Shown: positions 24,431 through 45,277 of the stretch, in pieces | Numbering within the stretch: the first letter of the stretch is position 1 | Layout of the letters: each line of letters starts with the position of its first letter | NCBI RefSeq assembly: GCF_016595675.1 | Contig: NZ_JAENJH010000001.1 | Location: 1,298,096 to 1,362,095 of the forward strand | Origin: Prauserella cavernicola | GTDB taxonomy: Bacteria; Actinomycetota; Actinomycetes; Mycobacteriales; Pseudonocardiaceae | Reading direction: 5' to 3' | DNA length: 64,000 nucleotides | Position numbers and translations under genes: made by a program | Notes under the pieces: model-generated | Told to the model about the DNA's origin: nothing | What the model saw: only the letters and a program-made list of their open reading frames with translations | The model's database searches: none

Positions 24431-24437
24431 TCGCTCC

Positions 24438-25604: not shown

Positions 25605-25615
25605 GATGTCCCAAC

Positions 25616-25631: not shown

Positions 25632-25635
25632 TAGT

Positions 25636-25651
25636 AAACCTATATAGGAAC
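25636..25651. promoter_or_regulatory. IclR-type 16-bp site 2
   Basis: AAACCTATATAGGAAC, containing the perfect palindrome CCTATATAGG. Its CCTATATAGGAAC part differs at one position from the matching 13 bases of site 1. Confidence 0.65.
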
Positions 25652-25698
25652 GTATGGCGTGCCGGGCCGCCCTGTCAACCGCGACCGCGACGGCTATC

Positions 25699-25714
25699 GT
25701 TCGTACATACGAAC
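25699..25714. promoter_or_regulatory. IclR-type 16-bp site 3 (near-perfect palindrome)
   Basis: GTTCGTACATACGAAC, symmetric apart from the central CA; with flanking bases the arms are CGTTCGTA and TACGAACG. It lies 15 bp before the iclR start codon and would serve autoregulation. Confidence 0.72.
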
Positions 25715-25729
25715 GCGTCGGGAGTGGAC

Positions 25730-26455: not shown

Positions 26456-26540
26456 GCCCCGCGCACCGCCGCACCACCCCGCCACACCCGCCGTTGACAG
26501 TGCGGCGCGTCACTCCTTACGGTGGCATATCGGAACAGCC

Positions 26541-26556
26541 ATTCGTATTTAGGAAC
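26541..26556. promoter_or_regulatory. IclR-type 16-bp site 4
   Basis: ATTCGTATTTAGGAAC, only 9 bp before the dctP-like start codon and overlapping its AGGAAC ribosome-binding region. A protein bound here would block transcription through the leader. Confidence 0.62.
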
Positions 26557-26565
26557 GGTGATGCG

Positions 26566-28207: not shown

Positions 28208-29499
28208 TGTCCGTCGTCATCGTGATCGCCGTGCTGCTGCTGTTGCTGCTCATCCGGATCCCGGTCGGATTCGCCATCGCCATCGCGGGAACTTTGGGTC
28301 TCTACGTCCACAGTGGACTGTCCGTCGTGCTCGGCGTGCTCCAGTCGGCTCCCGCCGCGGCGGTGTCGTCGTACTCACTGTCACCGATCCCGTTGTTCAT
28401 CCTCATGGCCCAGTTCGTGGTGGCGAGCGGGGTCATGGACGATCTCTTCCGCGCCACCCAGGTCTGGGTCGGCAGGATCCGGGGCGGAGCCGGTATCGCC
28501 GCCACCGGTGCGGGTGCGATGTTCGCCGCGGTGTCGGGATCGAGCACCGCGGCCGCGGCCACGCTCGCCCACACCTCCACCACGAAGATGATCGCCTCCG
28601 GCTACAGTCCCCGGATCTCCACCGGGCTCGTCGCCGTCGTCGGCACCCTGGCCGCGATGGTGCCACCCAGCATCATCCTGGTGTTCTACGCCATCCTGGC
28701 CGAGCAGAGCGTCGGACAGGTGCTCGTCGCCGGGTTCCTCCCCGGGGCGATGGTGACGCTCGCGCTCATCGTCACGCTGCTGATCCTCATCAAGGTGAAC
28801 CCGGCCTCGGCTCCTCCCGGTGAGCGGCACGCGTGGAGGGACAAGCTCTCGAGCCTCACCTCGGCGGGCCCGGTGCTGGCGCTGTTCGCGCTCGTGACCG
28901 GAACCGTCTACTTCGGAGTCGCGACGCCGACGGAGGCCGCCGCGCTCGGGTCGCTGGGCGGGTTCGCGATGCTCGTCGCGCGCAAGCGGGCGAGCTGGCA
29001 GGCCATCAAGCACGCGATCGTCGAGACCATCAACGCCAGCGTGATGATCCTGATGATCATCCTCGGCGCCCACATCCTCGGCTACTTCATCACCTCGACC
29101 AGGGTCACGCCCGCCGTCGTGGACTGGGTCGGCTCGCTGAACGTCGCGCCGATCGTCGTCATCATCGTGCTCGCCATCGGCTACGTGATCCTGGGCTTCT
29201 TCCTTGACCAGATCGCCATCCTGGCGTTGACCGTGCCAGTGGTGCTGCCGCTGATCATCGAGCTCGGCTACGACCCGATCTGGTTCGGCGTGCTGATGGT
29301 GCTGCTCGCCGAGATCGGTCTGGTCACCCCGCCACTGGGCCTCAACGTGTTCGTCGTGGCCCGCACCGCGAAGCGGCCCGTCTCGGAGGTCTTCTGGGGC
29401 GCGGCACCGTTCGCACTGGCCGTGGCGGCGGTGGCGGCGCTGCTGATCGCGTTCCCGGAGATCGTGCTCTGGATTCCGGACACCATGGCGGCCGAGTAG
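28207..29499 (+). CDS. TRAP transporter large permease (DctM-like)
   Basis: A 430-residue, 12-span permease: IRIPVGFAIAIAG in the first span, FRATQVWVGRIRGGAGIA, GSSTAAAATLAHTST and VPPSIILVFYAILAEQS are DctM signatures. ATG at 28207 overlaps the DctQ stop by one base. A strong hairpin 4 bp after the stop ends the operon. The cargo is likely an organic acid handled by the CaiB/acyl-CoA dehydrogenase pair. Confidence 0.88.
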   Translation: MSVVIVIAVLLLLLLIRIPVGFAIAIAGTLGLYVHSGLSVVLGVLQSAPAAAVSSYSLSPIPLFILMAQFVVASGVMDDLFRATQVWVGRIRGGAGIAATGAGAMFAAVSGSSTAAAATLAHTSTTKMIASGYSPRISTGLVAVVGTLAAMVPPSIILVFYAILAEQSVGQVLVAGFLPGAMVTLALIVTLLILIKVNPASAPPGERHAWRDKLSSLTSAGPVLALFALVTGTVYFGVATPTEAAALGSLGGFAMLVARKRASWQAIKHAIVETINASVMILMIILGAHILGYFITSTRVTPAVVDWVGSLNVAPIVVIIVLAIGYVILGFFLDQIAILALTVPVVLPLIIELGYDPIWFGVLMVLLAEIGLVTPPLGLNVFVVARTAKRPVSEVFWGAAPFALAVAAVAALLIAFPEIVLWIPDTMAAE

Positions 29500-29541: not shown

Positions 29542-29780
29542 TCACACGGGGGTGACCAGCAAGATCACGCCCACCTCGGTTCCGCAGTCGACGAACACCG
29601 GTCCGACGCCGTGGCCAGGAACTCGTCGGGTCCCGACCGCAGGATCCGCACGTTCTCCAACGCCGGCTTGTCCGGAAATCCGCCGATCACGGATCGCAAT
29701 CCCTCGCCACCACCGCAACTTCCGGTGATGGTCACCTTCTCGCCGCGCGTGGTGGTGGGGTTGGGACAGACGCGGTTCAC
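29542..29780 (-). pseudogene. Frameshifted small Ig-like/secreted-type protein remnant
   Basis: From GTG at 29780 the frame reads RGEKVTITGSCGGGEGLR and PALENVRILRSGPDEFL, then runs into unlike sequence and stops at 29565. Dropping back one base at about 29615-29619 (a GG where GGG is expected) gives GHGVGPVFVDCGTEVGVIL and a stop at 29542, right against the hairpin terminator. The content looks like the end of an actinobacterial secreted beta-sandwich protein, but no signal peptide is present, since the upstream gene ends here (GTGA overlap). So it looks both 5'-truncated and frameshifted. Confidence 0.45.
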
Positions 29781-30658
29781 ACGTCGTCGGCGATGCCGTC
29801 CAGAACGGCCAGCTCGTCGTCGGGAAGCACGAGGCCGGCGGCGGCGACGTTGTCCCGCAGGTGCTGCACGGACGAGGTTCCGGGGATCAGCAGGAGGTTC
29901 GGCGAGCGCTGCAGCAGCCAGGCCAGCGCCACGGCCATCGGCGTCGTCTCCAGCCGGGCGGCGACCTGGTCCAGCTCGGCGGACTGCAACGGGTTGAAGC
30001 CGCCGAGCGGCCAGAACGCGGCGTAGGAGATGCCCTGCTCGTTCAGCTCGGCGATCAGGGCGTCGTCACGCCGGGTGGCCACGTTGTACCAGTTCTGCAC
30101 GGTCACGACCGGAGCGATCGAGCGGGCCTGCGCCACCTGCTCGGCATCCACGGTGCTGACGCCCAGGTGGCGGATCAGCCCCTCCTGCCGCAGCTCGGCC
30201 AGGGTGCCGAACGCCTCGGCCAGCGACCCGGGCACCGGCGAGTGGCCGTCGGCACCACCACCCCAGCGCAGGTTCACCACGTCGAGCGCGTCGACGCCGA
30301 GGTTGACCAGGTTCTCGTGCACCTGCGCCCGCAGCTGTTCGGGGTCCCGGGCGTGGACCCAGCTCCCCTCGTCGTCGCGCACCGCGCCGACCTTGGTGAC
30401 GATCACGAGGTCGTCCGGGTAGGGCGCGAGCGCCTCGCGGATCAGCCGGTTGGTGACGTGCGGACCGTAGAAGTCCGCCGTGTCGATGTGGCGGATGCCG
30501 GCGTCGAGCGCGGCGCGCAGCACGGCGATCGCCTCGTCCGGGTCGGCGGGAGGGCCGAAGACGCCCGGCCCCGCGAGCTGCATCGCGCCGTAACCGACCC
30601 GCGTGAACTCGAGGTCAGCGACCCGGTAGGTGCCGCCGGGCAGTTCGCTCCCACTCAT
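29777..30658 (-). CDS. Aldo/keto reductase
   Basis: A 293-residue AKR barrel: VGYGAMQLAGPGVFG at the start, DTADFYG with D59 and Y64, VTKVG with K89, and NLRWGG where the tetrad His is replaced by R131, as in YdbC-type reductases. C-terminal LLLIPGTSSVQHLRDN binds NADPH. ATG at 30658 is used; a TTG at 30670 next to GGTGAGGA would add four residues. Substrate unknown. Its stop overlaps the start of a gene remnant. Confidence 0.85.
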   Translation of the reverse strand: MSGSELPGGTYRVADLEFTRVGYGAMQLAGPGVFGPPADPDEAIAVLRAALDAGIRHIDTADFYGPHVTNRLIREALAPYPDDLVIVTKVGAVRDDEGSWVHARDPEQLRAQVHENLVNLGVDALDVVNLRWGGGADGHSPVPGSLAEAFGTLAELRQEGLIRHLGVSTVDAEQVAQARSIAPVVTVQNWYNVATRRDDALIAELNEQGISYAAFWPLGGFNPLQSAELDQVAARLETTPMAVALAWLLQRSPNLLLIPGTSSVQHLRDNVAAAGLVLPDDELAVLDGIADDV

Positions 30659-30781
30659 GCGTTCGTCCAATCCTCACCTGGTGTTGTCTCACTCCCATCG
30701 TCGCCCACGAGCGGACTCCGCGAGAATCGAGCACCACCGTCGAGGGGAAAGCGGACATCGAGGCCCGCTTCCCCCTCGTGC

Positions 30782-32059
30782 TCAGGCCACCTGAACCGGT
30801 GCGGCCGCCGTCCGCGGCGTCCGCACGAGGACGAGCACCGCCAAGGCACCGGCGAGCGTGACGACGCCGGCGAGGACGAAGGCGGTGCTGTAGCTGCCCG
30901 TCGTCTGCACGACCGCGCCCGTCACGATCGGGGCGAGGATCCCGGCGAGGGTGGAGCACATCTGGATCACGCCTGCCAGCCTGCCCGTGTAGCGCGCGGG
31001 CACGAGCGCGACGATCAGCGCCTGGTACTGGTAGCTGGCCAGCAGGAAGAACGTGGCCACACAGACCAGGACCATGCCGAACGTGGGCGAGGTGACGAAC
31101 GGCGACGGGCCGAAACACACGGCGACCGCGACGAGGCAGCCCACGATCATCCACTTGCGTGGCGTCACGAGACTGCCGGTGTTGCGGATCAGCCGGTCCG
31201 CGACCAGGCCTCCCACGATGAGGCCCGCCGTCGCCGCGAACCACGGGATGGTCGCGATGCCACCGAGTTCGGTCTCGGACACGCCCCGAGCGTCCACAAG
31301 GTACTGCGGGTACCAGGTCATGAACATGAACAGCACCCAGGAGTAGGCGAAGAACGCGATCGCCAGCGCCGCGATCCGGACGTCGCGCAACACGCTCCAG
31401 AACCCGGGTCGTGCGGCCTCGTCGCCCGCACCGGTGTCCGCCGACTCGTGGTCGGCTGTGACGAACGCGCGCTCGGCCTCGTCGGCTTTGGGGTGGTCCT
31501 CGGGCCGGTCCCTGGCGATGAACCACCAGGCGGCACACCACACGAGCCCGACAGAGCCGAGCACGACGAACGTCGGCCGCCAGCCGATCGTCGTGCACAT
31601 CAGCACGATCAGCGGCGTCGCGATGATCGGCCCGATCGTCGTGCCGGACTGCGCGAGGTTGAGCATCGTCGAGGTCTGCCTGCGCGGGAACCAGTTCGCC
31701 GTCAGCTTGGTGCTGATCGGCGCCTGCGGTCCCTCGCCCGCACCGAACAGCAGCCTGGCCACGATGAACGACCCCGCGCTCCAGGCGCTCGCGGTGATCG
31801 GAATCGTCAGCGACCACACGAGCATGCACACCGTGTACGCCCGGCGGACACCGATCTTGTCCACCATGAGACCGCCGATGAGGGCGAACGGTGAGTAGGT
31901 CCAGAAGAACGCGCTGAGGATCACTCCCCACACCGCGGGCGAGAAGTCGAACTCGGCGAGAATGAAGGGAGCGGCCACCGACAGCGCGACCCGGTCCCCG
32001 TAGTTGATCAGGCACGCCAGGAAGTTCATCGCGAACACCCGGTAGCGGATCCTGGTCAT
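30782..32059 (-). CDS. MFS transporter, anion:cation symporter (ACS) type
   Basis: A 425-residue 12-span transporter. NYGDRVALSVAAPFILAEF in TM1, GGLMVDKIGVRRAYTVCMLVWS between TM2 and TM3 and LLFGAGEGPQAPISTKLTANWFP in TM4 mark the ACS group, which imports organic anions such as sugar acids and tartrate. ATG at 32059 follows GGAGGT. It begins 16 bp after E1 beta, making E1 alpha-E1 beta-transporter one leftward operon under the LacI-controlled divergent promoter. Confidence 0.85.
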   Translation of the reverse strand: MTRIRYRVFAMNFLACLINYGDRVALSVAAPFILAEFDFSPAVWGVILSAFFWTYSPFALIGGLMVDKIGVRRAYTVCMLVWSLTIPITASAWSAGSFIVARLLFGAGEGPQAPISTKLTANWFPRRQTSTMLNLAQSGTTIGPIIATPLIVLMCTTIGWRPTFVVLGSVGLVWCAAWWFIARDRPEDHPKADEAERAFVTADHESADTGAGDEAARPGFWSVLRDVRIAALAIAFFAYSWVLFMFMTWYPQYLVDARGVSETELGGIATIPWFAATAGLIVGGLVADRLIRNTGSLVTPRKWMIVGCLVAVAVCFGPSPFVTSPTFGMVLVCVATFFLLASYQYQALIVALVPARYTGRLAGVIQMCSTLAGILAPIVTGAVVQTTGSYSTAFVLAGVVTLAGALAVLVLVRTPRTAAAPVQVA

Positions 32060-32075: not shown

Positions 32076-33050
32076 TCAGTCGCGGGCCAGTGTCCGCAGT
32101 TCGGTTTCGATCCGGTCTGTGCCGGGCAGCAGCTCGGCGGCCAGCGCGGGAGCGGCGGGAATCCGCCCGTCCGCCGCGCCGATGCGCACCGGCCGTGCCG
32201 AGAGCACCCCGGCCTCGAGCGCGCGCACGACGACCTCGCCGCCGAAGCCACCGGTCACGTTGGCCTCGTGCACCACCGCGAGCCGGCCGCCGGTCCTCGC
32301 GACCGACGCGTGCACGGCGTCGTGGTCGAACGGGTTCAGCCACGGTGTCTCCAGCACCGTCACCTCGATGCCGTCGGCGGCCAGCCGGTCGGCGGCCTCC
32401 AGCACGCGGTGGGTGATCGCTCCCCACGTCACGACCGTCGCGGCCGAACCGGTCCTGCGCACGGTGCTGCCACCGATCGGCGCCGGAGCAGCGCTCGTGT
32501 CCACCTCCTGCTTCTCACCGAAGTACAGGGTCCGGTTGTCGAAGACCACCACCGGGTCGTCGCAGTGGACGGCGGACAGCATGGAGTCGTAGGCGTTCTG
32601 CGGCGTGGACGGCACCACCACGCGCAGACCGGGGATGTGGGTGAACAGCGCCTCGAGGTTCTGGGAGTGCTGCGCGCAGGCTCCCGGCGAGTTGCCCTGC
32701 TGCGTGCGCACGGTCAGCGGAGCGGCGAGCCTGCCCCCGGACACGTACCGCACGTTCGCGGCCTGGTTCACCAGCTGGTCGAGAGCGACGAGGAAGAAGT
32801 CGGCCCACATGATCTCGACGATCGGCCGCCTGCCCAGCATCGCGGCGCCGACGGCACTGCCGAGGATCGCGGACTCGCTGATCGGCGTGTCGAACACGCG
32901 ATCGCCGAAGTCCTTCCACAGTTTCCTGGTGACGCCGTGCACGCCGCCCGGCTTGGCGACGTCCTCGCCGTAGAGCAGGGTTTCCGGCAGCTCTTCCAGG
33001 CAGCGGCGCAGCGCCGCGTTGACCGCGCCCGCGTAGGTCAGTTCAGGCAT
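32076..33050 (-). CDS. 2-oxoacid dehydrogenase E1 beta subunit (acetoin/pyruvate type)
   Basis: A 324-residue E1 beta: LLYGEDVAKPGGVHGVTRKL (about 24-43), PISESAILGSAVGAAMLGRRPIVEIMWADFF and QQGNSPGACAQHSQNLEALF are the TPP-binding and subunit-contact blocks. It works as an alpha2beta2 tetramer with the neighbouring alpha subunit, decarboxylating a 2-oxoacid or cleaving an acetoin-like compound. No E2 or E3 genes are present in the cluster. Starts within the alpha gene (8-bp overlap). Confidence 0.87.
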   Translation of the reverse strand: MPELTYAGAVNAALRRCLEELPETLLYGEDVAKPGGVHGVTRKLWKDFGDRVFDTPISESAILGSAVGAAMLGRRPIVEIMWADFFLVALDQLVNQAANVRYVSGGRLAAPLTVRTQQGNSPGACAQHSQNLEALFTHIPGLRVVVPSTPQNAYDSMLSAVHCDDPVVVFDNRTLYFGEKQEVDTSAAPAPIGGSTVRRTGSAATVVTWGAITHRVLEAADRLAADGIEVTVLETPWLNPFDHDAVHASVARTGGRLAVVHEANVTGGFGGEVVVRALEAGVLSARPVRIGAADGRIPAAPALAAELLPGTDRIETELRTLARD

Positions 33051-33984
33051 ACAGGTGCTCCTTGGCGGTGTCGGGATCGGCGAACGGGTCGGCCAGCGCC
33101 TGCTCCGCCGCCGCCTCGATCTCGGCTCGCGCGCGCCCCTCGATCGCGTCGGTGTCCACGCCGCTGCCCGCCAGTGCCGAGGTGGCGACGGCGAGGGGCT
33201 CGACGAGACCGTCGGCCTCCAGCTCGGCGCGGGTGCGGTACTGCTGCACGTCGCCGATGTAGTGGCCGACGAGCCGCTGCGTGATCAGCTCGACGAACGC
33301 GGGGCCGCCGCCGTTCCTGGCCTCGGCGGCGTACCCGGCGACCGTGGAGCGGACCCGCGCGGGATCGTTGCCGTCGATCCGGGTGGCCGGAATGCCCAGC
33401 GCGGTGGCCCGCTCGGTGAGCTGGTCGTTGCGCACCATGTCGTTGATCGGCGTCAGCTCGGAGTACCGGTTGTTCTCGCAGACGAACAGCACCGGGAGAT
33501 CGAAGGCGGCGGCGAAGTTCATGGCCTCGCCCACGGCGCCCTGATTCATGGCGCCGTCGCCGAACACCGCCATCGCGATCCGGCCGCTGCCGTCGTGCTT
33601 GCCGGCGAGCGCGGCGCCCACCGCGTGGGAGGCGCCGGCGCCCACGATGGAGTTCTCGCCGTAGAAGCCGTACTCGGGCGCGGAGAAATAGGCCGAACCG
33701 CCCCGGCCGCCGTTGACCCCGGTCGCCCTGCCGAGCAGTTCGGCGAACAGCTCCCGAGTGGGCGTGCCCTTTGCCAGCGCCCAGCCGTGCCCGCGGTAGG
33801 TCGCGAACAACGCGTCACCGTCCACCAGCTCGGTGCACGCGCCGACGGGCGCGGCCTCCTGCCCGATGCACAGGTGCACGGACCCGATCAGCTCACCCGA
33901 CTTGTGCAGGGCCTGCAGCTTCTCCTCGAACGCCCTGATCCGCCACATCGCGGCCAGGTCCGCCTCCAGCCGGTCCTCAGTCAT
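33043..33984 (-). CDS. 2-oxoacid dehydrogenase E1 alpha subunit (acetoin/pyruvate type)
   Basis: A 313-residue E1 alpha. The TPP motif is GDGAMNQG (142-149) with NN at 171-172; HLCIGQEAAPVGAC and YRGHGWALAKG are the substrate-side segments. ATG at 33984 follows GAGGAGG. First gene of the leftward operon; a 20-bp operator lies 21 bp before its start. In acetoin or pyruvate complexes the product is transferred to an E2 lipoyl domain, which is not encoded here. Confidence 0.87.
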   Translation of the reverse strand: MTEDRLEADLAAMWRIRAFEEKLQALHKSGELIGSVHLCIGQEAAPVGACTELVDGDALFATYRGHGWALAKGTPTRELFAELLGRATGVNGGRGGSAYFSAPEYGFYGENSIVGAGASHAVGAALAGKHDGSGRIAMAVFGDGAMNQGAVGEAMNFAAAFDLPVLFVCENNRYSELTPINDMVRNDQLTERATALGIPATRIDGNDPARVRSTVAGYAAEARNGGGPAFVELITQRLVGHYIGDVQQYRTRAELEADGLVEPLAVATSALAGSGVDTDAIEGRARAEIEAAAEQALADPFADPDTAKEHLYA

Positions 33985-34004: not shown

Positions 34005-34024
34005 AAGTCAAACGATTGTCTAAC
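34005..34024 (+). promoter_or_regulatory. LacI-type operator copy A
   Basis: AAGTCAAACGATTGTCTAAC on the plus strand, matching copy B (34100-34119, minus strand) at 17 of 20 positions. The core CAAACGATTG is a near-palindrome centred on CG, as LacI-family sites usually are. It lies 20 bp upstream of the E1 alpha start. Confidence 0.7.
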
Positions 34025-34099
34025 GAGCCAGTGATACATGGTCTCCGTTATCGCTTCCTCATCGGCGTTTATTGCCATCCTCGGCGTGCTGCACGTACG

Positions 34100-34119
34100 G
34101 TAAGGCAATCGATTGACTT
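34100..34119 (-). promoter_or_regulatory. LacI-type operator copy B
   Basis: Minus strand AAGTCAATCGATTGCCTTAC with the perfect palindrome CAATCGATTG at 34106-34115. It lies 15 bp before the lyase start codon. With copy A about 95 bp away in opposite orientation, it brackets the divergent promoter and could allow looping. Confidence 0.72.
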
Positions 34120-34134
34120 CGACAAGGGAGGGTA

Positions 34135-35457
34135 ATGATCCCGCAGCGCTTCGAGATGTTGCTCGAGCTGTACGGCGACGAACGCACCACGGAGATCCTG
34201 TCCGAGCAGGCGATGATCGGGTCGTGGTTGCGCGTCGAGGCCGCGCTGGCCACGGCACAGGGCGAGCTGGGGGTACTCGGCGCCGCCGAGGCCACGGCCA
34301 TCGTCGAGGCGGCCACGCCGGACAACATCGACTCCGAGCGGCTCTGGAAGGAGACCAGGACGGTCGGCTACCCGATCCTGTCGCTCGTCAGGCAGATCGA
34401 CGGCGCACTGCCCGAACAGCGACGCGGGCGGGTGCACTACGGCGCCACCACCCAGGACATCATGGACTCGGGACTGGCGCTACAGCTCGACGACACCGCG
34501 CGGCGGCTGCTCGAACTGCTGACCCGCCTCGGCGACGCACTCGCCGAGCTTGCCGAGCGGCACGTCCACACGGTCATCGCGGGGCGCACGCACGCCCTGC
34601 ACGCCGTGCCCACCACCTTCGGCGCCAAACTCGCGCCCTACGTCGCCGAGCTGACCCGCCACCGCGACCGGCTGGCCGCCGCGCGCGAACGGGTCGCGGT
34701 CGTCTCGCTGTTCGGCGCGGGCGGCACGTCGGCGGCCTACGGTGAGCAGGCTCCCGCGGTGCGGGCCCGCGTCGCCGAACTGCTCGGGCTGAGCGGCACC
34801 GACGTGCCGTGGCACGTGGCTCGCGACGGCCTTGCCGAGTTCGGCCTCGTGTGCTGTCTGCTGAGCGCGACGTGCGCGCGGTTCGCCAGGGAGGTCGTCG
34901 ACCTCTCGCGCACGGAGATCGCGGAGGTCAGCGAGGCGAGCGGCCATCACCGCGGCGCCTCGTCGACCATGCCGCAGAAGGCCAATCCCATCGAGTCCGA
35001 GGCGGTGATCGGGCTGTCGGCCACGGCCGGCGCTCTCGGTTCGGCGCTGTTTCGCGCGATGGAGGCGGGCCACGAACGCGCCGCTGGTGAGTGGCAGGCC
35101 GAGTGGCAGGTGTTGCCGCAGCTGGCCGCGCTGGGTGCCGCCGCGCTGCGCACCACCACGTCGATCGTCGAGGGCCTGCAGGTGTTTCCCGACGCCATGC
35201 GCGCCAACCTCGACGCCGACGGCGGCCTGGTCATGGCCGAGGCGTACATGATGCGCCTCGCCCCGTCGCTCGGCCGCGAACGCGCTCACGACGTGGTGTA
35301 CGAGGCGGTGCGCCGGTGCCGCGTCTCCGGTGAGCCGCTCGCGGACATCCTGCGCGAGTCGCTGCCCGCCGACTGCGCGGAGATCACCCCGGACACCTAC
35401 GTCGGCGATCCACAACGGACGGTCGAGGCCGCCGTGTCCGCCTGGCGCGAACACTGA
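34135..35457 (+). CDS. Fumarase/aspartase superfamily lyase (PcaB-like)
   Basis: A 440-residue helical lyase with HYGATTQDIMDS (101-112) and the signature loop SSTMPQKANP (276-285), whose Ser277 is the likely general base. Nearest in wording to 3-carboxy-cis,cis-muconate cycloisomerase and adenylosuccinate lyase; it should eliminate or add across a fumarate-like bond. The neighbours do not form a protocatechuate pathway, so the substrate is open (an N- or O-succinyl adduct is one possibility). ATG at 34135 follows AGGGAGGG. Confidence 0.85.
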   Translation: MIPQRFEMLLELYGDERTTEILSEQAMIGSWLRVEAALATAQGELGVLGAAEATAIVEAATPDNIDSERLWKETRTVGYPILSLVRQIDGALPEQRRGRVHYGATTQDIMDSGLALQLDDTARRLLELLTRLGDALAELAERHVHTVIAGRTHALHAVPTTFGAKLAPYVAELTRHRDRLAAARERVAVVSLFGAGGTSAAYGEQAPAVRARVAELLGLSGTDVPWHVARDGLAEFGLVCCLLSATCARFAREVVDLSRTEIAEVSEASGHHRGASSTMPQKANPIESEAVIGLSATAGALGSALFRAMEAGHERAAGEWQAEWQVLPQLAALGAAALRTTTSIVEGLQVFPDAMRANLDADGGLVMAEAYMMRLAPSLGRERAHDVVYEAVRRCRVSGEPLADILRESLPADCAEITPDTYVGDPQRTVEAAVSAWREH

Positions 35458-35470
35458 GGAGGACAGACGA

Positions 35471-36250
35471 GTGGGACGTTTCGACGACAGGACCGCGATC
35501 GTCAGCGGCGCGGGAGGCGGTATCGGGCGCGCGTGCGCCCTGCTGCTGGCCGCCGAGGGAGCGCGCGTCGCGGTGACCGACATCGCGAGGGACCGGGCCG
35601 AGGAGACCACCGCGCTCGTCAGGGCTGCGGGCGGCGTGGCCGCGACCTACCCCGCGGACGTCACCTCCGGGGCCGAGATCAACGAGGTCGTGGCCTCCGC
35701 CGAACGCGACCTGGGTCCGGTCACGCTCGCCGTGGGCGCGGCGGGGATCATCCGCAACCGGCCTTTCCTCGAGCTGCCCGAGGAAGGCTGGGACGCCACG
35801 ATGGCCGTCAACCTCAAGGGCACGTTCCTGCTCCTGCAGGCCGCGGGCAGGCGCGCCCGCGAGCACGGCGGGGGCTCGATGGTGGCGATCGCATCCGTCG
35901 CGGGCCGCGGCGCGCGGCCGACGTCGGCGGACTACGCCGCGAGCAAGGCCGGGGTGATCAGTCTCGTCCGGTCGGCGGCACAGGCGCTGGCCGCCGACGG
36001 CGTGCGGGTCAACTCCGTGTGTCCCGGCGTGGTCGACACCGACATGACGCGCGCCATCCACCGGGAGCGCGCCGCGATCACGGGCACGACGCCCGAGAAG
36101 TCCTTCGCCGCGCTGGCCGGGCAGATCCCGCTCGGCCGCACGGTCTCGCCCGGCGAGGTCGCCGAGACGGTGGCCTTCCTGCTCTCCCCCACCGCGTCGT
36201 ACATCACCGCACAGGCCGTGAACGTCTGTGGCGGACTGGAAATGGACTGA
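35471..36250 (+). CDS. Short-chain dehydrogenase/reductase
   Basis: A 259-residue classical SDR: SGAGGGIGRA binds the cofactor (12-21), an Asp in VTDIARD at the end of strand 2 suggests NAD(H), and Ser (IASVAG), Tyr and Lys (YAASKAG) form the catalytic triad. GTG at 35471 follows GAGGAGG. It is 13 bp after the lyase, in the same operon, and probably oxidises a hydroxy-acid intermediate to a keto acid (inference). Confidence 0.86.
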   Translation: MGRFDDRTAIVSGAGGGIGRACALLLAAEGARVAVTDIARDRAEETTALVRAAGGVAATYPADVTSGAEINEVVASAERDLGPVTLAVGAAGIIRNRPFLELPEEGWDATMAVNLKGTFLLLQAAGRRAREHGGGSMVAIASVAGRGARPTSADYAASKAGVISLVRSAAQALAADGVRVNSVCPGVVDTDMTRAIHRERAAITGTTPEKSFAALAGQIPLGRTVSPGEVAETVAFLLSPTASYITAQAVNVCGGLEMD

Positions 36251-36260
36251 GGAGTTCCCC

Positions 36261-36746
36261 ATGCTGCACGGTGTCTGGCACTTCAGTTTCACAGTGTCCG
36301 ATCTGGACGCTTCGGTGGCGTTCTACCAGGACCTGCTGGACTTCCAGCTGATCCACACCCAGGAACAGCGCAATCCCTACACGAGCAAGCTCGTCGGCTA
36401 CCCCGACGCCCACCTGCGCGTCGCCCAGCTCGCGGTGCCCGGCCAGCCGCGCGGGCTGTCCAGCCACGACCTGGAGCTGGTGCAGTACCTCAACCCCGAG
36501 GGCAGGCACGTGGACACCGAGATCCGCGACCCCGGTGCCGCGCACCTCGCGCTCACGGTCGACGACATCCACGACCGGCACACCAAGCTCACCGACGCCG
36601 GCGTGCGGTTCTACTCCGAGCCCAACGCCATCACGGCCGGGGTCAACGAGGGCGGGTTCACGTGCTACTTCGAGGACCCCGACGGCGCCGTGCTGGAACT
36701 GGTGCAACCTCCGGCTCACCGTTTGGCGGCCAACGGGCCCGCCTGA
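36261..36746 (+). CDS. VOC superfamily (glyoxalase-like) protein
   Basis: A 161-residue vicinal-oxygen-chelate protein with both halves of the fold: GVWHFSFTVSDLDASVAFYQDLLDF (3-28) and AAHLALTVDDIHDRHTKL (about 93-110). Metal ligands are plausibly the His in each first strand and the Glu in EDPDGAVLELVQP. It may be an epimerase, isomerase or lyase. ATG at 36261 follows TGAGGAG, 10 bp after the SDR stop. Confidence 0.82.
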   Translation: MLHGVWHFSFTVSDLDASVAFYQDLLDFQLIHTQEQRNPYTSKLVGYPDAHLRVAQLAVPGQPRGLSSHDLELVQYLNPEGRHVDTEIRDPGAAHLALTVDDIHDRHTKLTDAGVRFYSEPNAITAGVNEGGFTCYFEDPDGAVLELVQPPAHRLAANGPA

Positions 36747-36795
36747 CCTAAACTGTCGCGGCACGCAGCCGACCGACACCAGCGAAGGCCAGGGA

Positions 36796-37827
36796 ATGCC
36801 GAGCAGGCCCAGCAGGGAACGAGCAGCCAAGGTCACGCTCAACGACGTGGCCATGGTCGCAGGCGTCGACCGGTCGGTCGTGTCCAGGGTGATCAACGGC
36901 GACCCGAACCTCAGCGTGCGGCAGGAGACCCGGCAGCGGGTGCTGGACGCGATCGACCGGCTCGGGTACCGGCCCAACGCCGCGGCCCGCAGCCTGCGCA
37001 CCGCCCGCGCGTACATGTTCGGCCTGGTCATCCCTGACTTCGCCAACCCGGTCTACGCCGAGATCATCAAGGGAGCCGAGCGGGCCGCAGGCAACCTCGG
37101 CTACGGCTTGATGACGGCCAGCTCGGGCGGCGTGCAGCTGGGCCTGGCGCACCACCTCGCACTGCTCGGCCAGGGCCGGGTGGACGGGCTGCTCTTCGCG
37201 GGCGAGGAGACCGGGCACGAGCTGGAGCAGCTGCGGACCTCGGCGGTGCCGTGGTTGCTGGTGAACCGCAGGATCGAGGGGTCGCGCCGCTACGTCGTGC
37301 TCGACGACGAACGCGGCAGCGGCCTCGCCGTGGAGCACATGGTCGCCCTCGGGCACCGTCGGATCGCGCATCTGGCGGGCCCCGAGGGCGCCGACACCGC
37401 GCGACGCAGGCGCGCGGGCTACACCGCCGCGATGACCGAGGCCGGACTGAACCCCGATCCTCGCCACGTCGTCCACGCCGACTACACCTCTGACGGCGGC
37501 GCGGCCGCGATGACCGCGTTGCTCAGGATCGAGCCACGCCCCACCGCGGTGGTGGTCGCCAACGTCGCGTCCGCCGTCGGGGCCCTGCACACCCTGCACG
37601 AGGCGGGCCTGTCGGTGCCAGGGGACCTGTCGGTGATCGCGATCCACGACATGCCACTGGCCGGACATCTGGTGCCCGCGCTCACGACCGTTCGCATGCC
37701 GCTCGGCAGGCTCGGCGAGCGCGCGCTGGAACTGCTCGCCACCTCGAACCTCACCGACGACATCACCGAGGTCGTCACCGAGCCCGTCGACGTGGTCGTG
37801 CGAGCGTCCACCGCCCCGCCGCGCTGA
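36796..37827 (+). CDS. LacI family regulator of the lyase/E1 cluster
   Basis: A 343-residue LacI protein: helix-turn-helix at about 13-34 (VTLNDVAMVAGVDRSVVSRVIN), hinge RPNAAARSLRT, and a full effector-binding domain. It ends the rightward lyase-SDR-VOC group and is the natural ligand of the paired 20-bp operators at 34005-34119. ATG at 36796 follows AGGCCAGGGA. Confidence 0.86.
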   Translation: MPSRPSRERAAKVTLNDVAMVAGVDRSVVSRVINGDPNLSVRQETRQRVLDAIDRLGYRPNAAARSLRTARAYMFGLVIPDFANPVYAEIIKGAERAAGNLGYGLMTASSGGVQLGLAHHLALLGQGRVDGLLFAGEETGHELEQLRTSAVPWLLVNRRIEGSRRYVVLDDERGSGLAVEHMVALGHRRIAHLAGPEGADTARRRRAGYTAAMTEAGLNPDPRHVVHADYTSDGGAAAMTALLRIEPRPTAVVVANVASAVGALHTLHEAGLSVPGDLSVIAIHDMPLAGHLVPALTTVRMPLGRLGERALELLATSNLTDDITEVVTEPVDVVVRASTAPPR

Positions 37828-39222: not shown

Positions 39223-39702
39223 CTACGGCGCGAAGAACTCCCGGTACGTCGCGCGCATCTCGTCGCCCAGGCCGGGATCAGGTCCCTCGACCACCGCTGA
39301 CGGCACCACCGTGGTGATCGGCAGGGCGGCCACGGGCGCGGGCTCCACACCCCACTCGGTCAGCCACTCGCCGAGCTGGCGGCTCGACGCAGCGTAGACG
39401 ATGCGGCCCAGCCCCACCCAGCCGTGGCTCGCCGCGCACATCGGACAGTGCTCGCCGGAGGTGTAGACCGTGGCCGCGGCGCGCTCGGCCGGAGCGAGGT
39501 GCGCCGCGGCCCACCGGGAGATCGCGAACTCGGGGTGCTGGGTGGCGTCGCCGTCCTTGACGCGGTTGCGGTCCTCGAACAGGACCGTGCCGTCGGCGCC
39601 GACCAGCACGGAGCCGAAGGGCTCGTCGCCGTCCGACAGCGCCGACCTGGCCAGGGCGAGGCAGCGCAGCAGGTGCGCGCGGTCGGTGTCGTCGATCGTC
39701 AT
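39223..39702 (-). CDS. Nucleoside/CMP-type deaminase
   Basis: A 159-residue zinc deaminase: HPEFA supplies H56 and the proton-shuttling E58, and EHCPMCAAS supplies C86 and C89. The wording is nearest to guanine deaminase and tRNA-adenosine deaminase relatives; the base is not determinable. Overlaps the muconolactone-isomerase-like gene by 4 bp, thus in the SorC operon. Confidence 0.82.
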   Translation of the reverse strand: MTIDDTDRAHLLRCLALARSALSDGDEPFGSVLVGADGTVLFEDRNRVKDGDATQHPEFAISRWAAAHLAPAERAAATVYTSGEHCPMCAASHGWVGLGRIVYAASSRQLGEWLTEWGVEPAPVAALPITTVVPSAVVEGPDPGLGDEMRATYREFFAP

Positions 39703-39989
39703 CCCGGGTTCGCCTCCGCGGTCAGGGGGTGGGTCGCCAGTGGTGTCACGTCGATCTCGGCGTAGGGGCGGGCCGGCAGGCTCTCCAGCGCCTGTTCGAG
39801 GGCGTCGGCGTCGGGCACGTCCCAGATGCCGACGTTCGCGCGCCTGCCCGGCACCCGCCAGATGTCGCGCAGCACTCCGTGGTCCATGAGCTCGCGGCCG
39901 CGCGTGCGCTCCCGCGCGATGAGCTCCGCCCGCTCGTCGGGCGGGAGCTCGTAGGCACGCGCGGTGTCGATGCGGACCAGGAACTGCAT
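39699..39989 (-). CDS. Muconolactone isomerase-like protein
   Basis: A 96-residue dimeric ferredoxin-fold protein (MQFLVRIDTARAYELPPDER...LMDHGVLRDIWRVPGRRANVGIWDVPDADALEQAL...), the length and pattern of muconolactone delta-isomerase. No other beta-ketoadipate genes are near, so it may act on another lactone. ATG at 39989 follows GGAG. Lies between the SorC gene and the deaminase. Confidence 0.72.
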   Translation of the reverse strand: MQFLVRIDTARAYELPPDERAELIARERTRGRELMDHGVLRDIWRVPGRRANVGIWDVPDADALEQALESLPARPYAEIDVTPLATHPLTAEANPG

Positions 39990-40026
39990 GGGATCTCCGT
40001 TCTCGGTGGCTGCCCAGCCGGGCTCC

Positions 40027-40962
40027 TCACACGGTCGCGAGGATGAGTTCGGCGGTGTGGATGTCGGTGACCAGGCGGTTGAACAGGCCGGCCCTGGCGC
40101 CGGCGATGATGCTGCCGACCTTGTTGGCGCCGACGGCGACGGCGATGGTCGACGGAATGGCCCGCAGCTGGTCCGTGCTGATCCGGACCATACGGTCACT
40201 GCCGGGAAAGACCGCCTCACCGCCCAACTGGTCGAAGAAGTTCAGGCAGATGTCGCCGACGGCGGTCTGCAGGCCCGCCGCCTCCATGGGAATCGAGGTC
40301 GAGATCGACGACCGCGACGTGGGCGGCGCGCCGACGCCGAGGAGCGCGACCGTGGCCCGCTGCCAGAGGTCGGTGACCCTGCGGAACTCCGGGTCCTCGT
40401 CGAGGGTGGCGCGCATGGCTTTCGACGGCATCGCCTGTGCGAACAGGAAATGCGGCCGGGCACCGACGCGCTCGGCCAGTGACCGCACGATCTCGTTGGT
40501 CTGGTGCCAGGGCTCTGGCTCGGCCACCCCGCCCACCATGGGAACGAGGTTCACGCCGGGCAGGGCGGGCAGCACGGAGCGGCTGAGCTCGTAGACGGTC
40601 CGTCCCGACGAGACGAGCAGCACGTCGCCTGGCGTCGGCCCGCTCGCCCGCAACGCGCTGCCCACCGGCTCGGCCAGGGTGGCGATCTCGCCGTTGCCGA
40701 AGGGCGCCAGCCAGACCTGCTTGAGCCCCAGCACCTCGGCGACCCGTTCTGGATGCGCCGCCACGGCGACCGCGCCGGGGTCGTGCACGGTGATCCGGAC
40801 GATGCCGAGCCGCCGCGCGTCGGCGAGCAGCCTGCTGACCGTCGGCCGGGACACCGACAGCCGCTCCGCGATGCGCGCCTGCCCGAGCTCGTCCAGGTAG
40901 TACAGCTGCGCGGCCTGGTGCATCAGCCGCAGGTCGCGGCGCGAATGCTCGGCGCTGGCCAT
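40027..40962 (-). CDS. SorC family sugar/polyol-responsive regulator
   Basis: A 311-residue SorC/DeoR-type protein: N-terminal helix-turn-helix (LGQARIAERLSVSRPTVSRLL, about 26-46) and a sugar-phosphate-isomerase-like effector domain. Its divergent neighbour is the erythritol/threitol operon, and SorC regulators often respond to phosphorylated sugars, so erythrulose phosphate is a reasonable inducer (inference). Confidence 0.85.
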   Translation of the reverse strand: MASAEHSRRDLRLMHQAAQLYYLDELGQARIAERLSVSRPTVSRLLADARRLGIVRITVHDPGAVAVAAHPERVAEVLGLKQVWLAPFGNGEIATLAEPVGSALRASGPTPGDVLLVSSGRTVYELSRSVLPALPGVNLVPMVGGVAEPEPWHQTNEIVRSLAERVGARPHFLFAQAMPSKAMRATLDEDPEFRRVTDLWQRATVALLGVGAPPTSRSSISTSIPMEAAGLQTAVGDICLNFFDQLGGEAVFPGSDRMVRISTDQLRAIPSTIAVAVGANKVGSIIAGARAGLFNRLVTDIHTAELILATV

Positions 40963-41006
40963 GACGTCCTCCTCCGTTGCCCCACCCTAACCACGCAGTC
41001 TTGCAC

Positions 41007-41018
41007 ATCTGTTCAGAT
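41007..41018. promoter_or_regulatory. Palindrome in the SorC/erythritol divergent promoter
   Basis: ATCTGTTCAGAT, arms ATCTG/CAGAT around TT. TGTTCA within it recurs at 41040-41045, exactly 30 bp on. Possible SorC site between the divergent start codons (40962 and 41104). Confidence 0.5.
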
Positions 41019-41103
41019 CTGCACGAACGTGTTGACGGATGTTCACCATTCACGTGACCCTGCCTGGTACCAACTGACGACCAGTGCCAACGGAGGTACT
41101 CAG

Positions 41104-42219
41104 GTGACCACCTCGGACACCCCTCAGATTCCCGGCCGGATGCAGGCGGTCGTGGTGCACGGCCCGGAGGACTACCGACTGGAAGAGGTGGACGTCCCCA
41201 CGCCAGGTCCCGGCCAGCTGCTGCTGAAGGTCGAGGCGGTCGGGGTGTGCGCCAGCGATCTGAAGTGCTACCACGGCGCCGCGAAGTTCTGGGGCGACGA
41301 GCACCGGCCCGCGTGGGCACAGACCGACCGCGTTCCCGGACACGAGTTCGTCGGCACCGTGGTCGCGGGTGACGAGGAAGCCCAGCAGCACCACCGCGCC
41401 GGCATCGGCGACCGGATCGTGTGCGAGCAGATCGTGCCGTGCGAGCAGTGCCGCTACTGCCGCGACGGGAAGTACTGGATGTGCGGGCCGCACGACATGT
41501 TCGGCTTCCGCGGCCACGACGGCGCCATGGCGGAGTACATGATCGTGCCGCACAACGCGCGCGCCCACCGGGTCTCCCCCGACCTCGCGCCGCAGCACGC
41601 CGCGTACGCGGAACCGCTGTCCTGCGCGATGCACGCGGTGGAGCGGGCCAACATCGGCTTCGGCGACGTCGTCGTGGTGGCCGGGTGCGGGCCGATCGGA
41701 CTCGGGCTCATCGCGGGCGCCCGCCAGAAGAACCCGCTCACCCTGATCGCACTCGACCTGGACGACGCGAAGCTGGAGCTGGGCCGCAAGTGCGGCGCCG
41801 ACGTCGTGATCAACGTGTCCGATGAGGACGCCATCGCGCGGGTCAAGGAGATGACCGACGGCTACGGCGCCGACGTGTACCTGGAGGGCACGGGCCATCC
41901 CTCCGCCGTCGCCCAGGGGCTGGACCTGCTGCGCAAGCTCGGCACCTACGTGGAGTACTCCGTCTTCGGTTCCGACGTCACGGTGGACTGGTCGATCATC
42001 TCCGACGACAAGGAACTGGACGTGCTGGGCGCGCACCTCGGGCCGCACTGCTGGCCCGCGGCGATCAAGCTCATCGAGAGCGGCGCGCTGCCGCTCGACG
42101 ACATCTGCACCCACCAGTTCGGACTGGCCGACTTCCAGAAGGCGCTCGACCTGGTGGCCGACACCTCCGGCGCGTCGGTGAAGGTCTCGATCCTGCCGAA
42201 CAGCGAGGTGCCGGCGTGA
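41104..42219 (+). CDS. eltD: Zinc-dependent polyol dehydrogenase, erythritol/L-threitol dehydrogenase type
   Basis: A 371-residue medium-chain dehydrogenase. Catalytic zinc ligands are C49 and H80 with E81; the structural zinc site is C113, C116, C119 and C127. The cofactor site is GCGPIGLGLIAGAR, and an Asp in LDLDDAKL indicates NAD. Wording and operon partners match the mycobacterial erythritol/L-threitol dehydrogenase (EltD), which oxidises the tetritol to erythrulose. GTG start at 41104 follows GGAGGT. First gene of the operon. Confidence 0.78.
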   Translation: MTTSDTPQIPGRMQAVVVHGPEDYRLEEVDVPTPGPGQLLLKVEAVGVCASDLKCYHGAAKFWGDEHRPAWAQTDRVPGHEFVGTVVAGDEEAQQHHRAGIGDRIVCEQIVPCEQCRYCRDGKYWMCGPHDMFGFRGHDGAMAEYMIVPHNARAHRVSPDLAPQHAAYAEPLSCAMHAVERANIGFGDVVVVAGCGPIGLGLIAGARQKNPLTLIALDLDDAKLELGRKCGADVVINVSDEDAIARVKEMTDGYGADVYLEGTGHPSAVAQGLDLLRKLGTYVEYSVFGSDVTVDWSIISDDKELDVLGAHLGPHCWPAAIKLIESGALPLDDICTHQFGLADFQKALDLVADTSGASVKVSILPNSEVPA

Positions 42220-43547
42220 CCACGACGGACAGCGCGCTCACCTCCGGCCGCGAGACGTTCTTCGACCGGATCGGCATTCCGCACCCGCTGCGCTGGGGTT
42301 TCCTCGGCGTGCTGGTCTTCATGACCGGTAACGGAACCGAGTCCAACTTCATCAGCCCCCACATCGGCGCCGTGCTCGGCAGCCCGGAGGGCACGGTGGC
42401 CACGATCATCGCGATGTACGGCGTCGCGGGCATCGTCGGCAGCTACCTCTCCGGCGCGCTGGCCGACCTGTGGGGGCCGCGGCGCGTGATGCTGATCGGT
42501 GCCGTGGTGTGGATCGTGTTCGAGGTCCTGTTCCTGCTGGCGCTGGCCGCGGGCAGCCTGCCGCTGGTGCTGCTGACCTACTTCCTGCGCGGCTTCGGGT
42601 TCCCGTTCTTCGCCTTCGGATTCCTGGTGTGGGTCAACATCGCCACCCCGGAATCGCGCAACGGCAAGGCCGTGGGCTGGTTCTACGTGATGTTCACCGG
42701 TGGCCTGCCCACCCTGGGCTCGCTGTTCGCGATCGGCATGATCCCGGCGTTCGGCGGCGGCACCGCGGGCGAGACCGGGGCGATGATCGCCTCCATCGCG
42801 CTGGTGGTGCTCGGCTTCCTCATCGCCTGGTTCGGTGTGCGGGACCCACGGGGCAACCGCCGGATCGCGCCGGAGGGCGAGACCTCGGCGCAGGTGCTCA
42901 CCGCCGGGCTCCGGCTGTCCGTCCAGCAGCCCAAGATCATGATGGGTTTCCTGGTGCGGCTGATCAACACCGCGCCGCAGTTCGGAATGTTCGTCATCTT
43001 CCCGGCGGTGATCGCCAATGACCTCGGCTGGGGCCAGGCGCGGTGGCTGACGATGACGGTGTTCGTCTACGCCACCAACATCCTCGTGAACGCCGTGTTC
43101 GGCGCGATCGGCGACCGGTGGGGCTGGCAGCGGACCGTGAAGTGGTTCGGCGTGTTCGGCTCGGCGGTCGGACTGTTGCTCTGGTGGTACGTCCCCCAGG
43201 CGGTGCCCGCGGGTTCGACGTGGGGCTTCTGGGTGTCGGTGGCCGCCGGTTGCGTGTTCGGCTGCCTGCTGGCCGGGTTCGTGCCGATGGGCGCGATCAT
43301 GCCCGCGCTCGCCCCGGAGCACAAAGGCGCGGCGATGGCCATGTACACCACCGCGGCGGGTGGCGCGCAGTTCCTCGGCTACGGCGTGGTCGCGCTGGTT
43401 CTCGCCCTCGGCCTCGGCAACGCGGGTGTGGTCTGGGCCTTCGTTCTGCTCTACGTGGCCGCGTTCGTGATGGTGTCCTTCCTGAAGGTCCCGCGCGACG
43501 CCGCTGTGCAGTCCCGGCCGCGGACCGCGATCGCCGGGGAGGCGTGA
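42216..43547 (+). CDS. MFS polyol permease
   Basis: A 443-residue 12-span transporter: PLRWGFLGVLVFMTGNGTESNF in TM1, SGALADLWGPRRVMLIGA between TM2 and TM3, and FLRGFGFPFFAFGFLVWVN in TM4. It resembles the ribitol/arabitol permease group (RbtT/DalT-like). GTG start overlaps the dehydrogenase stop (GTGA). It most likely imports erythritol or threitol. Confidence 0.84.
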   Translation: MTTTDSALTSGRETFFDRIGIPHPLRWGFLGVLVFMTGNGTESNFISPHIGAVLGSPEGTVATIIAMYGVAGIVGSYLSGALADLWGPRRVMLIGAVVWIVFEVLFLLALAAGSLPLVLLTYFLRGFGFPFFAFGFLVWVNIATPESRNGKAVGWFYVMFTGGLPTLGSLFAIGMIPAFGGGTAGETGAMIASIALVVLGFLIAWFGVRDPRGNRRIAPEGETSAQVLTAGLRLSVQQPKIMMGFLVRLINTAPQFGMFVIFPAVIANDLGWGQARWLTMTVFVYATNILVNAVFGAIGDRWGWQRTVKWFGVFGSAVGLLLWWYVPQAVPAGSTWGFWVSVAAGCVFGCLLAGFVPMGAIMPALAPEHKGAAMAMYTTAAGGAQFLGYGVVALVLALGLGNAGVVWAFVLLYVAAFVMVSFLKVPRDAAVQSRPRTAIAGEA

Positions 43548-45277
43548 TGACCCGCATCTACGACGACCCGGCGACGTTCGCCGACGACCAGCTGTCCGGG
43601 TTCCTCGACCTCTACTCCGACCGCCTGCACGGCGTGCACGGCGGGGTGGTCGCCCACCGCGGCGACACTCCACAGGTGGCGGTGGTGATCGGCGGCGGCT
43701 CCGGGCACTACCCGGCGTTCTGCGGCACCGTCGGGCCCGGACTCGCCTCGGCCGCGGTGGTGGGCAACATCTTCACCTCCCCGTCGGCCGCTCAGGCGTA
43801 CTCGGTCGGCAGGGCGGCGGACCAGGGCCGCGGGGTGATCTTCAGTTTCGGCAACTACGCCGGGGACACGATCAACTTCGGCATCGCCGCCCAGCGGCTG
43901 CGCGACGAGGGCATCGACGCCAGGGTCGTGATCGTCACCGACGACATCGCCTCGGCGGACGAGGTCGACAAGCGACGTGGGATCGCCGGTGACTTCACGG
44001 TCTTCAAGGTGATGGGCGCCGCGGCCGCCGAGGGCCGCGACATCGACGAGGTCGAACGGCTCGGCAGGGCGGCCAACGCGGCGACGCGCACCCTGGGCGT
44101 CGCGTTCTCCGGGTGCACCATGCCCGGCGAGAGCGACCCGCTGTTCACCGTGCCGGACGGACACCTCGGGCTGGGGCTCGGCATCCACGGCGAGCCCGGG
44201 ATCCGGGACGTGGCCATGCTTCCCGCCGCCGAGCTGGCCGCGCTGCTCACCGACCGGGTGACCGACGCCGCGCCCGCCGGCATCGGGCGACGGGCAGGTG
44301 TGATTCTCAACGGACTGGGCACCACGAAGTACGAGGAGCTGTTCCTGCTCTGGGGACACGTGGCGAAACGCTTGCGGGACAAGGGCTTCGAAGTGGTCGA
44401 GCCCGAGGTCGGCGAGCTGGTCACCAGTCTCGACATGGGTGGCTGCTCGCTCACCCTGATGTGGCTGGACGACGAGCTGGAACCGTTGTGGCGGGCCGAC
44501 GCCTACACCCCGGCGTACCGCAAGTCGGCCGCGCCACTGCGGGCGCTGCGACCACCGAATCCCCACGAGCTGGCCGATGCCGAGGCGGTGCGCACCGCGC
44601 CGGAGGCGACCCCGGCCGCCGCCCGGCTGGGACTGACCGTGCGCGCGGCCTTCGACGCCGCCCACCGGACACTGACCGAGCACGAACACGAGCTCGGCAG
44701 GATCGACGCGGTGGCGGGCGACGGCGACCACGGGCGAGGAATGGTCAAGGGCGTCACCGCTGCTCTCGATCGGTTGCGGGACAACGAATCGGGTGTCGGC
44801 GGCGGCTGGCTGCTCCAGGAGGCGGGGCAGGCGTGGGCCGAGCGCGCGGGCGGTACGTCCGGCGTGCTGTGGGGCGCCGCGCTGGACGCCTTCGGGCGCA
44901 CACTCACCGACAGCGCGCAGGAGTACCCCGCCACCGCCGTCGCGAAGGGCGTGCGGGCGTTCACCGACGCGATCTCCGAGCTCGGTGGCGCCCGGCCAGG
45001 CGACAAGACACTGCTGGACGCGCTGGTGCCGTTCGCCGAGGAGCTGGAGTCCGCCACGGCGGACGGCACGGCGCTCGTGCCGGCGTGGCAGGCCGCGGCC
45101 AGGGTCGCGACCGAGGCCGCGGAGTCCACCGCGACACTGCGCCCTCAGGTGGGCCGGGCCCGGCCGCTGGCCGAGAAGAGCATCGGCACACCCGACGCGG
45201 GCGCCACCTCGCTGGCACTGGTGGTCACCGCCGTCGGCGAGGCGCTGACCGTCGAGACGGAAAGGAAACGATCGTGA
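43547..45277 (+). CDS. DhaK-DhaL fused kinase, erythrulose kinase type
   Basis: A 576-residue ATP-dependent kinase. The DhaK half (1-330) has [10 protein letters not shown] (50-59), FGNYAGD and H214 in GIHGEPG, which forms the hemiaminal link to the ketone; the DhaL half (about 360-570) has DGDHGRGM binding Mg-ATP and GGTSGVLWG. In the M. smegmatis tetritol pathways a kinase of this family phosphorylates D-erythrulose; dihydroxyacetone is the alternative. Start overlaps the permease stop. Confidence 0.84.

Follow-up and report, generated by a model that had tools for sequence, protein, structure and literature searches.

A 64-kb stretch of the 7.2-Mb genome of the actinobacterium Prauserella cavernicola (contig NZ_JAENJH010000001.1; the whole stretch is referred to here as the window) carries a divergent gene cluster in which one arm encodes the α and β subunits of an E1 component of the 2-oxoacid dehydrogenase type and a transporter of the major facilitator superfamily (MFS), and the other arm a lyase, a short-chain dehydrogenase/reductase (SDR), a VOC protein and a LacI-family regulator. 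In this work we propose, with a probability of roughly 0.45, that both arms share one pair of operators, that their products take up and break down a sugar acid of the L-fucose type, and that the E1 enzyme makes the final C-C cut without an E2 partner.

Organization of the divergent cluster

The minus-strand arm is formed by the genes for E1α (33043..33984, with its ATG at 33984; E1_dh, 212 bits), E1β (32076..33050; Transket_pyr and Transketolase_C) and an ACS-type MFS transporter that is predicted to be a sugar-acid importer (30782..32059; MFS_1, 210 bits). The plus strand carries the genes for a lyase of the fumarase/3-carboxymuconate cycloisomerase (CMLE) superfamily (34135..35457; Pfam Lyase_1, 133 bits, and ADSL_C, 34 bits), an SDR dehydrogenase (35471..36250; identified by a profile match and its structural neighbours in the PDB), a VOC protein with the H/E/H/E residues of the glyoxalase-I type (approximately 36261..36746) and the LacI-family regulator (36796..37827). 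The starts of the E1α and lyase genes are separated by 150 bp, the E1α and E1β genes overlap by 8 nt, and the remaining gaps within the arms span 10-49 nt; given this close spacing, each arm is operon-like. The divergent set described in the first-pass annotation was recovered entirely: all the genes are in frame and have a high third-codon GC content, and only the start codons of the SDR, VOC, LacI and MFS genes, placed too far upstream in the mechanical list of open reading frames, had to be trimmed.

A conserved palindrome in the shared intergenic region

The gap between the arms includes two CG-centred palindromes, for which no strand is assigned, and which are predicted to be the LacI operators: GTCAAACGATTGTC at 34007..34020, located 22 nt before the E1α ATG, and GGCAATCGATTGAC at 34104..34117, located 17 nt before the lyase ATG. 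A search of the complete 7.2-Mb genome for GTCAAWCGWTTGAC, allowing one mismatch, found these two sites only, each with a single mismatch; the reversed pattern, used as a control, gave no sites in each of 10 genomes. Of 25 orthologous clusters, 23 have the same palindrome (in total 41 sites over 468,852 bases, and none for the control), and shuffled palindromes gave a mean of 0.03 sites against 17 real ones in eight clusters. For most of the 41 sites, an SDR, lyase, E1α, ABC-transporter or Gfo gene has its called start at a distance of no more than about 134 nt.

The regulator encoded in the window has a helix-turn-helix and a periplasmic-binding-like domain (Peripla_BP_3), with palindromic operators nearby. 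As in LacI-family sugar regulons, each arm has a CG-centred palindrome close to its start, and such palindromes are also found close to ABC, Gfo and fucosidase-type units of the relatives; in contrast, the motif and the regulon of the present cluster were not found described in the open-licence literature. Given that the conserved pair is located in the shared gap and has no other copy in the genome, the simplest reading is that both arms probably constitute a single LacI regulon, and the sequence argues for their co-expression. A scan for sigma-70 promoters found nothing.

Distribution of the cluster and its gene company

The cluster is widespread and not restricted to one genus. A scan with the lyase confirmed at least 565 relatives in GTDB, and of the 80 loci that were kept, 19 encode in the same stretch an E1α of at least 63% identity. 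In a class-wide sample of 394 genomes, nine, the window included, had an E1α match at E 1e-100; in one of these nine (G097) the remaining cluster genes are absent from the stretch examined. A phylum-level E1 search at E 1e-90 returned only the window itself (1/396).

For comparison, 25 distinct clusters were tabulated that had been chosen for holding the lyase, E1α and E1β genes (25/25 each). The SDR and VOC genes are present in 24 clusters each and the LacI gene in 23, the missing ones falling at locus ends. The companions are a Gfo/Idh oxidoreductase (20), a fuconolactonase-like hydrolase (16), a ribose-type substrate-binding protein (15) and, in or beside the cluster, an aldehyde:ferredoxin oxidoreductase (8, for instance L025:7304-9091) that may consume an aldehyde released by E1. 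Rarer companions are a muconolactone-isomerase-family (MIase) protein (5), the ACS-type MFS transporter (4: the window, two congeners and one metagenome-assembled genome (MAG) of Amycolatopsis), an SBP_bac_1-like protein (4), RhaM (3) and a cyclase (3). A chance grouping of these genes is ruled out by the operator statistics together with the recurrent gene content. The SBP_bac_1-like protein (L023:12858-14096, L024:1358-2578, L040 and L056) shows no signal peptide by eye, and its gene has a LacI operator near the start in at least three clusters. In three loci from actinobacterial MAGs (L060, L066 and L067) a fused E1α-β of 668 aa, an SDR and a lyase of 41-44% identity occur together, with LacI in two of them; the Bifidobacterium breve label of L066 looks wrong.

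Substrate clues and comparison with the oxidative L-fucose pathway

The best NCBIfam match of the MFS transporter of the window is the D-galactonate transporter model TIGR00893 (274.5 bits, under the cut-off of 395). The hydrolase of the related clusters matches the L-fucono-1,5-lactonase model NF052480 (200.8 bits; cut-off 400) and the PDB entry 4dlf. In addition, a close fucosidase-type (GH95/GH139) relative was detected in 8 of 26 genomes (5/10 and 3/16), in most cases adjacent to the cluster or preceded by its operator. In G337, G182, G162 and G202 its gene lies behind an operator site with 0 or 1 mismatch, in G255 it adjoins the cluster without such a site, and in two Actinomadura loci it adjoins lacI. 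The four proteins of this type that were tested match PF22124 with 37-40 bits (cut-off 27), and in a structural model (pLDDT 90.6) the 18 best Foldseek rows are GH95, GH139 or other alpha-L-fucosidase entries; from sequence and model it is a putative GH95/GH139-type α-L-fucosidase. In the literature searched no paper included the term DUF5703. The ABC transporter, the fuconolactonase-like hydrolase, RhaM and the fucosidase-type gene of the relatives likely point, by analogy, to a fucose-type (deoxy)sugar acid. A rather doubtful extension, suggested by the position of this glycosidase between the GH95 and GH139 families, is that the actual sugar is the 2-O-methyl-L-fucose of rhamnogalacturonan II.

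Two bacterial routes for L-fucose have been described, and in the part of that account considered here neither includes the present gene set (PMC13406643). The first-pass annotation had likewise named no described pathway with these genes, and none was found in the open-licence literature. The related clusters resemble the non-phosphorylative (oxidative) L-fucose pathway of Xanthomonas and Burkholderia, as far as it is outlined in the same source, in having Gfo/Idh, an L-fuconolactonase-like hydrolase, an SDR and a presumed sugar-acid intermediate (PMC13406643). In contrast, they use a lyase, a VOC protein and E1: within the 25 clusters, tblastn found neither an enolase-type L-fuconate dehydratase (0/25; three queries, from L163, L167 and L063, E 1e-8) nor a 2,4-diketo-3-deoxyfuconate hydrolase of the FAH family (0/25; one query, from L165). 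Probably the lyase and E1 replace these two enzymes. Two loci that encode a related E1 and an enolase-type gene but no lyase (L163, where the enolase is taken from the record annotation, and L167) hint that the lyase and the enolase-type dehydratase are alternatives.

Proposed route

We infer the whole of the following route, its substrate and chemistry included. The ACS-type transporter would import the acid, e.g. L-fuconate; in the relatives the free sugar would enter through the ABC transporter and the acid would be formed by Gfo/Idh and the lactonase. A 2-keto-3-deoxy acid would then arise through removal of the 3-hydroxyl and of the proton at C2 by the lyase, which would stand in for the enolase-type fuconate dehydratase. 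The SDR would oxidize the butanediol-like CH3-CHOH-CHOH tail to an acyloin (5-hydroxy-4-keto), which the VOC protein could isomerize or epimerize via an enediolate. Finally, E1 would cut the C4-C5 bond of the acyloin in the manner of acetoin dehydrogenase E1, releasing acetaldehyde and a C4 oxo-acid at the level of oxaloacetate, with no acyl transfer to a lipoyl-E2.

The idea of an acyloin comes from the butanediol-like tail of fuconate, the kinship of E1 to acetoin dehydrogenase, and the solved structure nearest to the SDR, annotated as a putative acetoin(diacetyl) reductase. FabG-type enzymes are also among the PDB neighbours listed for the SDR. In the VOC protein the metal/glyoxalase-I type positions H18, E83, H106 and E157 are invariant in 25 rows. 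The order of import, lyase, SDR oxidation and cleavage by a thiamine pyrophosphate (TPP) enzyme suggested in the first-pass annotation fits a sugar-acid pathway with both arms under one operator pair; the part to be revised is its organic anion, which is likely a (deoxy)sugar acid, because the relatives carry sugar genes in the cluster or behind the operator.

E1 genes without a neighbouring E2 gene

Positions E59 and H128 of E1β and H72 and H247 of E1α are conserved in 26 rows and match the catalytic residues of pyruvate dehydrogenase (PDH), whose roles we take from general knowledge of that enzyme. The enzyme is thus similar to acetoin and pyruvate dehydrogenase E1 as a two-subunit TPP enzyme with matching conserved residues; it differs in that the flanks of its clade encode neither an E2 nor a lipoyl protein, and in that the loop His is followed by Tyr and not by Ser or Phe. 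The loop of E1α reads GHYIGD, and GHSMSD in human PDH (1ni4), H247-Y248 being aligned with the human GHS site.

The absence of E2 noted in the first-pass annotation extends beyond the window. No E2 gene is present near the window E1, whereas an E2 lies within 2 kb of each of the genome's two other two-subunit E1s (C4 and C22); a third E1 is a fused Kgd-type frame. E1α proteins were placed in a tree of 76 rows, which leaves out L025 and includes several rows from one genus, so that the rows are not independent of each other. E2 genes were counted only where the sequence extended for 3 kb or more to either side (flanks of 3-7 kb), so that 11 rows with shorter flanks remain uncounted; some E2 labels rest on a lipoyl domain alone, and L188, whose lipoyl-type match is just under the threshold, is labelled as lacking it. 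In the 29-row clade of the window E1α (SH-aLRT 97), no E2 was found within 7 kb in any of 22 rows. The enclosing 36-row clade (SH-aLRT 100) has an E2 in 1 of 27 rows, and 25 of 38 among the remaining 40 rows have an E2 or a lipoyl protein. Of the 40 rows with the GHY loop, one has an E2, 29 have none and 10 have short flanks; of the 18 with GHS or GHF, 13 have an E2 or lipoyl protein and five do not. A further 19 rows fall outside the motif. The E2-less clade also includes unrelated catabolic clusters, such as those of the M20/IclR/ADC type (L116, L162 and L164; L161 lacks ADC) and L123; therefore the absence of E2 is not special to fucose-type clusters.

In the Jiangellaceae the cluster encodes an E2 relic: it has the PSBD and the catalytic-core fold but no lipoyl match, and the His of the DHRxxDG motif is Pro in 7/7 proteins. 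Its structural model is weak (pLDDT 53.3); judging from the sequence, it is a decayed E2 with a catalytically dead core. The best reading of these comparisons is that E1 would cleave its substrate independently of E2.

MIase genes occur beside E1 genes at L165, L023, L024, L056 and L118, and also in the window, where the MIase gene (39699..39989, minus strand) is a possible satellite of the cluster. Given this recurrence, proteins of the MIase type may contribute to the chemistry of E1.

The lyase

Residues S277, within SSTMPQKAN, and H153 of the lyase are conserved in a 29-row alignment. The protein shares its family and the SSxMPxKxN loop with the 3-carboxymuconate cycloisomerase/Tad1/adenylosuccinate-lyase superfamily; it differs in its gene company, and for each of the 19 NCBIfam models that it matches its score stays under the cut-off, those for CMLE/PcaB among them (PRK09053, 352.6 of 595; TIGR02426, 282.1 of 355.75). 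Its best PDB match is the trans-aconitate decarboxylase Tad1; identity with this decarboxylase was rejected, given that Tad1 (9h4h) has Asn at the position of H153.

Next to lyases of a sister clade from other actinobacteria, DASS-type transporters are encoded at L030, L031, L037 and L042 and aldehyde dehydrogenases at L035, L042 and L047, several of these loci also having LacI; they possibly represent a second undescribed lyase pathway.

Neighbouring genes of the window

The TRAP operon at 26.5-29.5 kb and the AKR gene at 29777-30670 were considered as parts of the cluster and rejected, given that they have no tblastn match (E 1e-15) in other cluster loci and no operator site. Positions 23273-29499, which encode a CaiB-type CoA transferase, an acyl-CoA dehydrogenase, a BhcR-like regulator and the TRAP transporter, are likely a separate (di)carboxylate utilization block. 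At 39223-45277, the MIase gene and a deaminase-like gene (minus strand) lie opposite genes for a Zn-alcohol dehydrogenase, an RbtT/DalT-type MFS transporter and a dihydroxyacetone kinase; this block resembles polyol/dihydroxyacetone catabolism and lacks the LacI operator.

Discussion

Several observations weigh against a fucose-type pathway that ends in E2-independent cleavage. With respect to the substrate, the window genome has no fucosidase-type relative, its cluster lacks the lactonase, the ribose-type ABC transporter and RhaM of the relatives, and its Gfo relatives are distant, the best match (30% identity) being rejected as an orthologue; therefore its own substrate is assigned by analogy, and the species probably imports the acid itself. 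The fucosidase-type relative is limited to the 8 of 26 genomes mentioned, none of them a Nonomuraea genome of the 16-genome set, and RhaM (PF05336) is named for rhamnose. As for the enzymes, we know of no sugar-acid dehydratase in the fumarase/CMLE superfamily, and among the 60 of 168 PDB matches listed for the SDR, L-KDF dehydrogenase does not stand out as a near neighbour. Lyases of 51-61% identity form the sister clade, where all four transporters tested belong to the DASS type (PF00939) and three neighbours are aldehyde dehydrogenases, so this lineage may prefer di- or tricarboxylates. Loci from Chloroflexi and Bacillota (L055, L063 and L077) combine SDR, lyase and LacI, with VOC in two, and show no E1 in the stretch examined. 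Five GHS-type E1s also lack an E2 nearby; the genome includes three other E2 genes (C4, C22 and C44) and the fused Kgd, so that an E2 could serve in trans; and on a plasmid of Rhodococcus sp. WB1 (L163:9985-11679) an MIase is fused to a complete E2 (lipoyl, PSBD and 2-oxoacid_dh) directly after a related fused E1α-β.

Among the alternatives, it is possible, if somewhat unlikely, that the pathway does act on a sugar acid and that E1 decarboxylates a 2-oxo acid (C1-C2) non-oxidatively, the resulting aldehyde then being oxidized by an aldehyde oxidoreductase. Most E1-family enzymes act on 2-oxo acids, aldehyde:ferredoxin oxidoreductase genes accompany 8 of the 25 clusters, and ADC-type genes are found beside other E2-less E1s (L116, L162 and L164); nonetheless, under this chemistry it is hard to assign a function to the VOC protein, and an SDR whose nearest solved structure is annotated as acetoin reductase is a better fit to acyloin cleavage.

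It seems unlikely that E1 is an ordinary oxidative decarboxylase that borrows E2 and E3 from another complex, the pathway ending in an acyl-CoA. The conserved positions shared with PDH, the E2 and Kgd genes elsewhere in the genome and the Rhodococcus fusion would agree with it; against it stand the E2-free flanks of 22 clade members, the distribution of Tyr after the loop His (40 rows, one with E2) versus Ser or Phe (18 rows, 13 with an E2 or lipoyl protein), and the Jiangellaceae relic, which without a lipoyl domain or the DHRxxDG His would be of little use in acyl transfer.

A di- or tricarboxylate or an aromatic-derived lactone acid of the muconate or aconitate type, used by a CMLE-, aconitate- or fumarate-type lyase with MIase as partner, is the least probable substrate: the database names of the lyase, the Tad1 match, the DASS-linked sister clade, the MIase gene 1.9 kb past lacI (with its homologues in 5/25 clusters) and the ACS-type anion transporter favour it, but the lyase misses the curated CMLE cut-offs, has His153 where Tad1 has Asn, and in the relatives shares the operator or the cluster with sugar ABC, lactonase, mutarotase and fucosidase-type genes.

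Beyond E2-independent cleavage of an L-fucose-type acid in this cluster, a broader and rather doubtful proposal is that these genes represent a third, actinobacterial, fucose-type route, in which the lyase dehydrates, the SDR makes the acyloin and its cleavage falls to an E1 that derives from pyruvate/acetoin dehydrogenase and has lost its E2. The Jiangellaceae would then display E2 in the course of its loss, as a dead scaffold without lipoyl domain, and the wider clade, some of whose members are fused E1α-β proteins, would consist of free-standing E1 lyases.

If the route proposed here is right, sugar-acid catabolism would gain two unexpected enzymes, and many genes that at present go by the name of 3-carboxymuconate cycloisomerase or pyruvate dehydrogenase E1 could be given predicted substrates. 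An E1 that occurs in nature outside the lipoyl complex would be a model for the dismantling of multienzyme complexes, and might be of use in synthesis as a C-C lyase. Through its conserved operator, the regulon can be tested directly in genera that grow in culture, among them Prauserella, Nonomuraea and Jiangella.

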